Source: Alcanivorax sp. 24 (GTDB taxonomy: Bacteria; Pseudomonadota; Gammaproteobacteria; Pseudomonadales; Alcanivoracaceae). From it: a stretch of 64,000 nucleotides of DNA. The notes beneath the pieces were generated by a model that was not told the DNA's origin, made no database searches, and saw nothing but the letters and a program-made list of their open reading frames with translations. The stretch is taken from contig NZ_SNUA01000009.1 in assembly GCF_004360225.1 (NCBI RefSeq), positions 1-64,000 of the forward strand. The letters run 5' to 3'. Both the position numbers and the translations under genes were made by a program. The stretch's first letter is position 1; each line of letters starts with the position of its first letter. This document shows positions 8,302-48,590 of this stretch, one piece after another.

Positions 8302-8856
8302 TCAAGAATGGCGTTGGTCGAGAAGGCGTTGCGTCATATACAGCGCGGCGATGACCCGCGCTTCGGTCATATCGTCCCGCTCGATCAGACGATCCAGCTC
8401 GGACAGTTTCCAGGGGACCACTTCCAATGGCTCCGGTTCATCGCCGGGCAATGATTCCTCGTAGAGGTCTTCCGCCAGCACCACACCAATATGGTGGCCC
8501 ATGTAGCCGGGAGACAAGGACAGTCGCTTCATGAAGGTCAGCTTGCGGGCACCGTGGCCGGCTTCTTCCTTCAACTCACGGTTGGCCGCCTCGCGCCAGT
8601 CCTCGCCGTGCTCGTAGGCGCCCTTGGGCAGGGTCAGCAGATATTCCTCGACGCCGGCGCCGTACTCCCGAATCAGCAACACCGTATCCTCGTCCAGCAT
8701 CGGCACGCACATGACGCCGGCCAACGGCGGAGTGCGCAGGCGTTCGTAGGTTCTCTCCTCGCCGTTGGAGAAACGGAGGTGCATCTCTTCGATGCCGAAC
8801 AGGCGGCTTTGCGCCACCAGGCGGGTATCCAGAATGCGCGGCTTTTGTTCGTCCAT
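8302..8856 (-). CDS. nudE: ADP compounds hydrolase NudE
   Basis: The 184-residue Nudix hydrolase acts on ADP-ribose, NADH and Ap3A-type nucleotides. The Nudix box is visible as GAYEHGEDWREAANRELKEE followed by AGH, and the N-terminal region matches NudE. The ATG at 8856 is chosen because AGGAG lies four to eight bases upstream; the longer frame upstream is read-through into a repeat element. It is the first gene of the nudE-cysQ-hydrolase operon. Confidence 0.92.
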   Translation of the reverse strand: MDEQKPRILDTRLVAQSRLFGIEEMHLRFSNGEERTYERLRTPPLAGVMCVPMLDEDTVLLIREYGAGVEEYLLTLPKGAYEHGEDWREAANRELKEEAGHGARKLTFMKRLSLSPGYMGHHIGVVLAEDLYEESLPGDEPEPLEVVPWKLSELDRLIERDDMTEARVIAALYMTQRLLDQRHS

Positions 8857-8873: not shown

Positions 8874-9188
8874 GAGCCTGTTCATGATCGTTACGCCGCC
8901 GCGTTGCCACCGGAAAAGCCGCCAGAGGGCGTCGCGGACTGCGGGCTCTGGTGGGGCCAAAGGCAAAGGCCGGGGCGTCATCTGGCGGCCCTGTGCCCTC
9001 CGGGTATTTTCCAGCGCAACCCGAAGGGCCGGGCCCCACTTTCTTTAGGTGGAGAGTCCGCCAGGCCGCGATTACGCTTGTTTATGTAGATGGACTACAC
9101 CGCACAATCGGAATCACGACCTGACAACACTCTCTACCGGGTAAACAGGGAACTCCGGCGCGGCGGCGTAACGATCATGAACAGGCTC
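8874..9188. repeat. Fold-back element A with perfect 30-bp terminal inverted repeats
   Basis: The left arm (8874-8903) and right arm (9159-9188) are perfect 30-bp reverse complements starting GAGCCTGTTCATGATCG. The interior is homologous to the element at 47437-47722, including a TGTAG-N5-CTACA hairpin and the sequence CTTTAGGTGGAGAGT. No protein-coding content is convincing. It begins 18 bp upstream of the nudE start codon, so it may influence or carry the nudE promoter. It is probably a MITE or structured-RNA type element. Confidence 0.8.
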
Positions 9189-9342: not shown

Positions 9343-9398
9343 GCGTGTTGCGTGTTGCGTGTTGCGTGTTGCGTGTTGCGTGTTGCGTGTTGCGTGTA
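9343..9398. repeat. Heptanucleotide tandem repeat (GCGTGTT)7 plus partial
   Basis: Seven perfect GCGTGTT units (9343-9391) are followed by a variant GCGTGTA. It lies in the non-coding stretch 9189-9501 between fold-back element A and the terminal hairpin of the DUF6351 gene. No promoter is obvious next to it. Confidence 0.9.
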
Positions 9399-9419
9399 AG
9401 CGAATTATGAGACACCACT

Positions 9420-9479
9420 GGCTCGTGAGCCGCTCCCACAGAGCCCATCAACGTCTTTTGTGGGAGCGGCTCACGAGCC
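9420..9479. repeat. REP-like hairpin, possible terminator of DUF6351 gene
   Basis: Perfect 21-bp arms at 9420-9440 (GGCTCGTGAGCCGCTCCCAC plus one base) and 9459-9479 surround an 18-base loop. The GTGGGAGCGGC core is shared with other REP-like palindromes here. It lies 22 bp beyond the stop of the convergent lipoprotein gene and may stop its transcript. Confidence 0.7.
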
Positions 9480-9501
9480 GCGATGCTTTTTTACTTCCGA
9501 A

Positions 9502-46559: not shown

Positions 46560-46997
46560 ATGTCCGACCTCGCCGTCCCCGCCGGTTACCAACGGCACCG
46601 CCGCGCCAGCGGGCTCACCGCGCCCTGGGAGCCGATTTTCATCCGTCATCATGATCACGGGCTCAGCCTCGCCATCCGCGCCGGCCAGCCCCACGCCAAC
46701 AGCCGCGGTTTTGTCCATGGCGGCCTGATCTCGGCGCTGGCGGACAACGCCATGGGACTGAGCTGCGCGGATCGGCTGGGCGGCATTTCCGGCCTCGTCA
46801 CGGTGAGTATGACGCTGGATTTTCTGGGCAGCGCCCGCCTCGGCCAATGGGTGGAAATCCGCGCCGAGGCCACCCGGACCGGCCGTTCCCTGAACTTCGC
46901 CGCCGCCCAGGTATGGGCGGACGACGCTCTGTGCGCCCGCGCCACGGCGGTTTTCAAAGCCCTGGCTCCACGCCCGTCACCGGAGACCCCGTCATGA
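46560..46997 (+). CDS. PaaI/ACOT13-type hot-dog thioesterase
   Basis: The 145-residue single hot-dog protein has the motif RGFVHGGLISALADNAMG, where the family's HGG loop and following acidic residue contribute to acyl-CoA hydrolysis. GGGAGA precedes ATG 46560. Its stop overlaps the start of a second thioesterase (ATGA). A TetR operator lies upstream. Confidence 0.9.
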   Translation: MSDLAVPAGYQRHRRASGLTAPWEPIFIRHHDHGLSLAIRAGQPHANSRGFVHGGLISALADNAMGLSCADRLGGISGLVTVSMTLDFLGSARLGQWVEIRAEATRTGRSLNFAAAQVWADDALCARATAVFKALAPRPSPETPS

Positions 46998-47410
46998 GCG
47001 ACACCTCCGAGATACTGGAACGCATCCGCACCCTTTCCCGCCAGGCCCCTTTCAACAACTGGCTCAATCTCGAGGTACACCGGATTGAATCCGGCGAGGC
47101 GGAGCTGCATTTGAGATGGCGCGACGAATTCGCCCAATACAGCGGTTTTCTGCATGCCGCTCTGATTGGCGGCCTGATCGATACCGCCTGCGGCTTCGCC
47201 GCCGCGTCACAAGCCGGCAATGTCACCGCCTCACAATTTTCCGTGCGTTGCCTGAGACCGGCGGTGGCGGAGACTTTCGTGGTACGCGCCCGGGTGCTCA
47301 AGGCCGGCCGGCGGCAGGTGTTCGTGAATGCCGAGCTGGGCGACCTGGCCGACACCGGCGGAGCGCCCTTCGCGGTCGGCGAGGCCCTGATGGTGCCCAT
47401 CCCGTCCTGA
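46994..47410 (+). CDS. Second PaaI-type hot-dog thioesterase
   Basis: The 138-residue hot-dog protein has FLHAALIGGLIDTACGFAA in place of the HGG-loop motif of its neighbour (HAALIGG rather than HGG). The catalytic loop is therefore altered and its activity or partner may differ. It overlaps the first thioesterase by four bases; the pair could form a heteromer. No terminator is seen before fold-back element B. Confidence 0.87.
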   Translation: MSDTSEILERIRTLSRQAPFNNWLNLEVHRIESGEAELHLRWRDEFAQYSGFLHAALIGGLIDTACGFAAASQAGNVTASQFSVRCLRPAVAETFVVRARVLKAGRRQVFVNAELGDLADTGGAPFAVGEALMVPIPS

Positions 47411-47436: not shown

Positions 47437-47722
47437 TAGAGCCTGTTTAAGGTCTCCACGTCGCCGCGTTGCCGCTGGAAAAGCCGCCAGAGGGCGTTGG
47501 GGACTGAAGGCTCTGGTGGGTCCAAAGTCAAAGGCCACAGCGTCCTCTGGCGGCTTTTCCAGCGCAACCCGAAGGGCCGGGTCCACTTTCTTTAGGTGGA
47601 GAGTGCCGCCAGACCGCGATTACGCTTGTTTATGTAGAATGACTACACCGCACAATCGAAATCACGACCTGACGACAAAATGAACTCCGGCGCGGCGACG
47701 TGGAGACCTTAAACAGGCTCTA
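47437..47722. repeat. Fold-back element B with perfect 32-bp terminal inverted repeats
   Basis: Arms 47437-47468 and 47691-47722 are perfect 32-bp reverse complements beginning TAGAGCCTGTTTAAGG. A perfect internal 21-bp inverted repeat lies at 47473-47493 with 47544-47564. Smaller hairpins are TCCAC/GTGGA (47582-47600) and TGTAG/CTACA (47635-47649). The interior is homologous to element A at 8874-9188. It fills the gap between the thioesterase and SDR genes and holds no convincing gene. Confidence 0.85.
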
Positions 47723-47798: not shown

Positions 47799-48590
47799 AT
47801 GCGGGATGAACAACTGGCCGGCAAGGTCATTCTAATCACCGGTGCCGGCGGCGGTATCGGCCGGGTCACGGCGGAAAGCCTGGGCGCGGCGGGAGTACGG
47901 TTGATGCTGTCCGATATCGACGCCCACGCGGTGGAGTCCACCGCCGCCGCCATCCGCGAAGCCGGCGGCACCGCCCGGGCCATGGCCGTGGATGTCACCC
48001 TCGCGGATCAGGTGTCCGCCCTGGTGCAGGCCACGCTGGAGGCCTATGAACGTCTGGATGGCGCTTTCAACAACGCCGGCGTGGAGGAAGAAAACGCCAA
48101 GATCGTGGCCGTGGAAGAGAGCCTGTTCGACCGCATCATCGATATCAATGTCAAAGGCGTGTGGCTGTGCATGAAATACCAGATCGCCGCCATGGCCAAA
48201 CAGGGTGACGGTGGCAGCATCGTCAATACCGCTTCCATCGCCGGCCTGGTGGGCGCTCCCAAGCGCGCCGCCTACGCCGCCAGCAAACATGCGGTGGTGG
48301 GATTGACCAAGAGCGTGGCGGCGGAATACGCCCGTCAGAACATTCGCGTCAACGCGGTCTGTCCAGGCATCATCCGTACCGCCATGATGGAGCGTGCCAT
48401 CTCTCAGGTGGAGCGCGACGACGGCATCGACGCCGAACAGCAACGGCGCCTGCACGCGGCCCTGCATCCCATGGGCCGTGTCGGTGAAGCAACGGAAGTG
48501 GCGCAGGCGGTACAGTGGCTGCTGTCGGACGCGTCCTCTTTCGTCACCGGTCATCAACTGTCGGTGGACGGCGGCCTGACCGCTTTATAA
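47799..48590 (+). CDS. Short-chain dehydrogenase/reductase
   Basis: The 263-residue classical SDR has the NAD(P)-binding motif TGAGGGIG (14-21), NNAG (91-94), active-site S146 and the YxxxK pair Y159/K163. D39 in the LSDID strand end suggests NAD rather than NADP preference. ATG 47799 has GGAGA upstream. It is followed 22 bp later by a GST gene, probably one operon. Substrate unknown. Confidence 0.92.
   Translation: MRDEQLAGKVILITGAGGGIGRVTAESLGAAGVRLMLSDIDAHAVESTAAAIREAGGTARAMAVDVTLADQVSALVQATLEAYERLDGAFNNAGVEEENAKIVAVEESLFDRIIDINVKGVWLCMKYQIAAMAKQGDGGSIVNTASIAGLVGAPKRAAYAASKHAVVGLTKSVAAEYARQNIRVNAVCPGIIRTAMMERAISQVERDDGIDAEQQRRLHAALHPMGRVGEATEVAQAVQWLLSDASSFVTGHQLSVDGGLTAL

Follow-up and report, generated by a model that had tools for sequence, protein, structure and literature searches.

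Matched arm variation in a dispersed fold-back element of Alcanivorax sp. 24 and its relatives

Introduction

Bacterial MITEs leave target duplications, as do the fold-back elements described here. According to PMC3733652, MITEs of the RUP, NEMIS, ERIC and Nezha type measure 70–300 bp, have no coding capacity, carry terminal inverted repeats of 15–30 bp, often lie beside genes and form robust folds. The present family resembles them in length, terminal repeats, position and folding, and may likewise be non-coding. It differs in that no parental insertion sequence was found in the searches made, in that the arms vary between copies with matched changes, and in that core and fold are recognizable over a bacterial order. 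The repeats of Pseudomonas fluorescens offer a comparison by description, not by sequence. R0, R1, R2 and R6 are, like the present family, multi-copy, intergenic and bounded by inverted ends of 24–43 bp; R26 and R200 are similar in length but are listed without inverted ends (PMC2718517). The REP sequences and REPINs associated with RAYT transposases are likewise intergenic palindromic repeats of related bacteria, as outlined in PMC3733652. The elements described here are much longer, have GAGCCTGTT tips instead of the GTAG tag, and show TNA duplications; GTAG does not end a 20–40 bp palindrome but lies inside helix P4. Template switching is a described source of compensatory changes, and the hairpins presented in PMC8794818 show, as here, matched and sometimes multi-base changes in both stem strands. 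There, switching is inferred for RNA genes, whereas the present family is a dispersed mobile element whose arms lie more than 200 bp apart. No description recognized as this element was found in the open-access literature searched.

Elements A and B

The window (the whole stretch analysed, 64,000 nucleotides from the start of contig NZ_SNUA01000009.1 of Alcanivorax sp. 24) contains two such elements, A and B, whose features are collected in table 1. The arms of A are 30 bp long and those of B 32 bp when the flanking TA is counted (47437–47468 and 47691–47722); both pairs are 100% complementary. The element proper is GAGCC...GGCTC, and the outer TA of B is part of the insertion site. On direct reading, the arms of A and B differ at positions 10, 12, 14, 17, 18, 19 and 23, and seven of seven differences are compensated. 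The interior of A is homologous to that of B, with 79% identity over query positions 3–285 (BLAST). Comparison of the arms thus confirms an earlier note on this DNA, which had reported perfect arms within each element, seven compensated differences between them and homologous interiors. The TGTAG-N5-CTACA hairpin that it had placed inside both elements is also there, with a varying loop (ATGGA in A, AATGA in B). Both elements form very stable predicted folds: the DNA fold of B has z = -14.15 (0/200 shuffles equally stable) and the RNA fold of A has z = -9.09 (0/100).

Table 1. Positions of elements A and B and of their parts in the window.
Feature	Position	Strand	Basis or remark
Element A, 315 bp, canonical orientation +	8874..9188	+	one of 23 own-genome spanning copies
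Element A left arm (P1 5' strand)	8874..8903	+	100% complementary to 9159-9188
Element A right arm (P1 3' strand)	9159..9188	+	inverted-pair comparison
Element A inner hairpin P2	8918..8989	+	arms 8918-8940 / 8967-8989, 78% complementary; P2 in consensus folds
Element A conserved CCCGAAGGG (P3)	9020..9028	+	read in sequence; conserved block of family
Element A tip of P4, TGTAG-ATGGA-CTACA	9085..9099	+	read in sequence; helix 10 of consensus fold
Element B, 282 bp, canonical orientation +, TA on each flank	47439..47720	+	sequence, BLAST, inverted pair
Element B left arm	47439..47468	+	inverted-pair comparison
Element B right arm	47691..47720	+	inverted-pair comparison
Element B inner hairpin P2	47473..47564	+	arms 47473-47505 / 47532-47564, 88% complementary
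Element B conserved CCCGAAGGG (P3)	47568..47576	+	read in sequence; conserved block of family
Element B tip of P4, TGTAG-AATGA-CTACA	47633..47647	+	read in sequence; consensus fold

Element A lies 17 bp upstream of a minus-strand NUDIX gene (8302–8856; start codon picked by the analyst). Element B is flanked by a thioesterase gene (46847–47410) and a short-chain dehydrogenase gene (47799–48590), both on the + strand and named by family assignment. Beside A, a tandem heptamer repeat (GCGTGTT, 9344–9398) adjoins REP-like palindromes at about 9418–9481. The stretch of genome G012 compared at site A has neither the heptamer repeat nor the REP-like palindromes.

Copies and distribution

Element B has 49 BLAST matches in its own genome, a member of Alloalcanivorax, many of them self-complementary or short; 23 copies span the model and part copies are also present. 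From 13 genomes of two genera, 76 spanning copies were extracted; four Alloalcanivorax genomes supplied 47 of them, and nine sister-genus genomes the other 29. Copies with an HMM match that does not span the model were left out of the 76 (for example L024, L025, L026, L028, L086, L089 and L104, and further L120, L154, L156, L164 and L165), and L024 and L120 were brought in for the analysis of shared insertions. Duplicate loci were omitted, as were L059–L077, taken as the same genomes as G012 and G001. One-per-site sets were obtained by dropping fifteen shared-site copies, which left 40 and 21. Most members of the family are 265–315 bp long (254–315 bp among the copies) and carry the conserved tips GAGCCTGTT...AACAGGCTC; their length differences, judged from lengths only, are not multiples of three.

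The earlier note had staked its reading on further copies in relatives, and these are present, in the 13 genomes and in further families of the order. The genus search matched 5/13 genomes (one of these at 4.2e-4 only), the family-level search 17/46, and an order search with a sister-genus copy as query 26/390, a lower bound for which two candidates were scored per genome. Named records with the P4 pattern belong to Alloalcanivorax xenomutans and A. balearicus (19 stretches). Related copies occur in plasmid records of Pseudomonas aeruginosa (1), Azotobacter chroococcum (2) and Halomonas (1). No match was obtained with element B in the plasmid and phage collections, with the P4 pattern in viral contigs, or with the Pseudomonadaceae-type copy L256 in phages.

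Order-wide relatives were examined at 20 places, in eight genera of seven families. At all of them the core lies between inverted sequences of 15 or more bases, with the exceptions of L252, L253 and L254 (short or shifted outer ends) and L264 (imperfect). At L260 the arms were absent at the expected span in one setting and a 20-bp pair was found at span 167 in the other; this locus was excluded from the arm comparison. Among the other 19 of the 20, 8.15 of 18 arm bases differ from copy to copy, against 0.53 of 18 from one arm to the other inside a single copy, and 12/19 match at 18/18, a matching that is partly by construction because these arms were located by the best inverted pair. Copies from other families (L250, L265, L264, L254) have tips such as AGGGGGCGTT or GGGCCTATT, and what they have in common with A and B is the core and the fold-back plan. 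Conservation of the core across the order suggests that the element does something.

Short elements carrying the family tips were seen at L083, L088, L090, L122, L211, L078, L084 and L201. Five are palindromes of 56–58 bp, the others measure 75, 93 and 20 bp, and some have arms unlike those of the family. Loss of the interior from longer copies may explain them, or they may represent a minimal form. There are also lone arms for which a 700-bp search range yielded no partner (L079, L081, L094–L097, L123, L128, L132, L133, L195, L209 and others); some recur at one location in two species, and some adjoin a hairpin of the neighbouring DNA.

Insertion sites and genomic context

Site A is filled at the same base in G000 and G012 and is empty in G001 and G002. 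Site B is empty in G002, and G001 and G012 are without the element there. These two genomes (L190, L189) have a 16-bp inverted pair of element tips, GAGCCTG-TT-CAGGCTC, about 20 bp upstream of the B site. The flanks of 64 distinct sites, with L017 and L136 left out and 10 repeated flanks counted once, show TNA on the left in 43 and on the right in 39. Equal flanking 3-mers are found at 18/64 sites and are TNA in 18 of 18 (shuffled mean 8.0, P = 1e-4); the other 46/64 are without equal 3-mers, and A and B are without a clean duplication. Together, TNA duplications and empty sites demonstrate past mobility. The family has terminal inverted repeats, a target-site duplication and empty sites as MITEs do. 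Where the earlier note had suggested a structured RNA or a transposable element, the repeated copies, TNA duplications and empty sites speak for the transposable element.

TNA duplication is a mark of the IS1031 group (IS5 family). The duplication is present here; an IS1031-like element with family ends was not found in the transposase searches. A search by end pattern saw no transposase with family ends in the own genome, three relatives and 17 sister-genus genomes. Among PF01609 loci, the 5 in the own genome and the 25 in 14 relatives are without family ends, the one-mismatch pairs being chance-like only.

A rough gene caller places 13/61 one-per-site copies over a called frame, among them A, wrongly so on direct reading. 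For the other 48 copies, the right-hand gene shares the strand of the element in 34 and lies on the opposite strand in 14. Some copies start at a called stop codon, which supplies the TNA. At L005, L009, L021, L032, L118 and L162 the called upstream gene ends at element base 1 or one base inside, so that the TNA target overlaps the stop codon. The orientation bias of the right-hand gene and the starts at called stop codons are no more than suggestive.

Covariation of the arms

Over all copies, both arms share the same non-consensus base in 114 cells in Alloalcanivorax (37.1 expected) and in 116 in the sister genus (34.6 expected). One-armed departures number 71 and 38, respectively, and cells in which each arm departs in its own way number 1 and 8. 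In the 40 one-per-site copies, 103 cells are both-sided against 31.7 when shuffled and at most 14 when slid, and 19/30 arm pairs have changed on both sides (8.0 shuffled). The consensus fold as a whole gives 33/93 both-sided pairs (9.9 shuffled) and 144 both-sided cells (39.2 shuffled). The compensation first read from A and B alone therefore holds in the larger sample, and covariation across the collected copies stands well above shuffled values in arms and whole fold alike. The variable core of the arm is formed by positions 10–20. Positions 1–9 vary little in Alloalcanivorax (5/423 mismatch cells) and somewhat more in the sister genus.

Left and right arms share their history closely, with a correlation of pairwise distances of 0.915 in Alloalcanivorax and 0.865 in the sister genus. 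Correlation of arm with interior distances is 0.10–0.14 and 0.24–0.28, respectively, and rises for some segments to 0.23 and 0.32 (nominal P < 0.05). Within the interior, the two strands of the P2 middle correlate at 0.82 and 0.77 and other neighbouring segments at -0.13 to 0.56; the strands of P4 correlate at 0.11 in Alloalcanivorax and 0.67 in the sister genus, and those of the P2 base at 0.31 and 0.42 (all strand values without a permutation test). History thus tracks pairing more than adjacency, with exceptions. Element B and L002 illustrate the separation of arm and interior: their interiors are 98.2% identical, yet nine compensated differences distinguish their arms. Two shared sites have different interior modules in different species, and there the arms are the same but for one base. 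We infer that recombination between copies swaps interior modules more freely than arms. Strict coupling of two interior modules was rejected, since a rough classification finds their main types in each of the four combinations. An interior that flips between its arms was likewise rejected (0 inverted or one-sided orthologous pairs among the 76 copies).

Changes after insertion

Thirteen insertion groups are common to several species, and within them four compensated changes stand against 20 in a single arm. Positions varying in both arms at shared insertions number four where chance gives 0.80 (P = 0.004). One of these is at site A, where two species differ at one base, in the left and the right arm alike. 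Another of the four is at the noisy position 25, and two belong to a single group of four species with copies of unequal length (266–315 bp), so that replacement by another copy is possible there. Among 274 non-orthologous pairs whose interiors share 92% identity or more, the mean is 3.45 compensated differences, and among 17 shared-site pairs the total is three; in neither set are the pairs independent. Mismatches per copy are 1.52 in shared copies (29) and 1.57 in unshared ones (47). The idea of copies born perfect that then decay is not supported by this comparison, shared copies having no more mismatches than unshared. With loads so equal, pure decay from a perfect start does not suffice by itself as an explanation, and neither does rapid correction.

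RNA or DNA level

Selection on RNA should favour G.U over A.C. Positions 22 and 25 of the arm carry an old linked asymmetry common to many copies, for which reason the count was restricted to positions 1–21. There, the 76 copies have 16 G.T and 15 A.C mismatch cells, and the one-per-site sets 12 G.U and 13 A.C, which argues against an RNA helix in this part of the arm. All 30 positions together give 52 G.T and 51 A.C. The inner arm in Alloalcanivorax has 14 G.U against 5 A.C, position 25 being left out by the fold. The equal counts in positions 1–21 and over all 30 positions weaken the case for a structured RNA behind the matching of the arms; P2 of the sister genus leans the opposite way (22 G.U vs 6 A.C, p = 0.004). 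P4 has 15 G.U vs 7 A.C in Alloalcanivorax (p = 0.134) and 5 vs 14 in the sister genus (p = 0.064). Summed over all helices of both genera, 89 G.U face 64 A.C, an excess expected under some selection on RNA but to be read in the knowledge that a predicted fold itself favours G.U columns. Transversions make up 54/192 compensated cells. No gathering-level Rfam match was found in the window, and two further sets (4 loci and 7 loci) gave sub-threshold miRNA hits only. The structured RNA put forward by the earlier note is thus disfavoured for the arms.

Discussion

A and B are probably, though by no means securely, copies of a non-autonomous, MITE-like fold-back mobile element, in which DNA copying from one arm to the other is what mainly keeps the two alike. 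The proposed mechanism would run as follows. (i) The element would be moved in trans by a transposase. (ii) A change in one arm would be transferred to its partner by DNA copying, so that the arms match. (iii) Copying could occur when a strand is folded, or when a transposition intermediate holds the ends next to each other, and the polymerase switches template between arms; repair of a hairpin mismatch would be an alternative route. (iv) Copying would be incomplete, so that single-arm changes persist as well. (v) It would be slow in residence, and perhaps faster when movement brings the ends together. Selection for a foldable DNA strand may act together with arm copying. Several results weigh against the account: the searches made for a transposase with family ends found none, A and B have no clean duplication and 46/64 sites no equal 3-mers, 20 of the 24 arm changes at shared sites affect a single arm, shared and unshared copies carry similar numbers of mismatches, some arm–interior correlations are nominally significant, G.U exceeds A.C in sister-genus P2 and over all helices, and the core is conserved across the order. 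The earlier note had offered selection on base-pairing and conversion between arms side by side; the compensation on which both rest stands, and beside it are the shared insertions, with four compensated and 20 one-armed changes.

That a folded single DNA strand is itself selected, its hairpin being recognized by a transposase or other factor so that only pairing copies survive or move whatever their arm sequence, is less probable but a serious alternative. It would account for arm sequences that change greatly across the order while pairing stays, for the five palindromes of 56–58 bp, some with quite different arms, and for strands that track each other in the P2 middle (0.82, 0.77) and in P4 of the sister genus (0.67, against 0.11 in Alloalcanivorax). 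The 20 one-armed changes that persist at 13 shared sites count against it, as do the TNA duplications. Such duplications are atypical of single-strand movement of the IS200/IS605-like kind. Selection on a transcript that acts as a structured RNA appears improbable. The consensus fold, with 33/93 pairs changed on both sides, the very stable folds of A and B, the surplus of G.U in sister-genus P2 and its slight counterpart over all helices agree with it, and so does a right-hand gene on the element's strand in 34/48 copies (rough gene calls). However, A.C equals G.U in P1 positions 1–21, the lean of P4 is inconsistent (15 vs 7 in Alloalcanivorax, 5 vs 14 in the sister genus), and Rfam gives no match.

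Inheritance from several source elements, each with matched ends and with nothing acting later, would fit the contrast between 3.45 compensated differences on average in the 274 non-orthologous pairs and three in all in the 17 shared-site pairs. It leaves unexplained how the sources gained matched changes, and it conflicts with arms nearly independent of interior ancestry and with the four compensated changes at shared insertions; we regard it as very improbable. Arm-to-arm copying in a mobile element may have a wider form, which is put forward as a doubtful extension. The family would then belong to a new order-wide mobile class with an intermediate that is either a folded single strand or end-joined, one arm being rewritten from the other in each cycle. 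Pairing, not sequence, would be inherited, and helices would be the units exchanged between copies, their two strands staying matched.

Covariation of paired bases is usually read as strong evidence for functional RNA. The A/B family has no Rfam match, yet it reaches several families of the order. It shows strong covariation, yet its arm substitutions look like DNA-level copying, which would call for caution in covariation-based RNA discovery. Bacteria that carry the family would also offer naturally occurring inverted repeats at which template switching could be measured.
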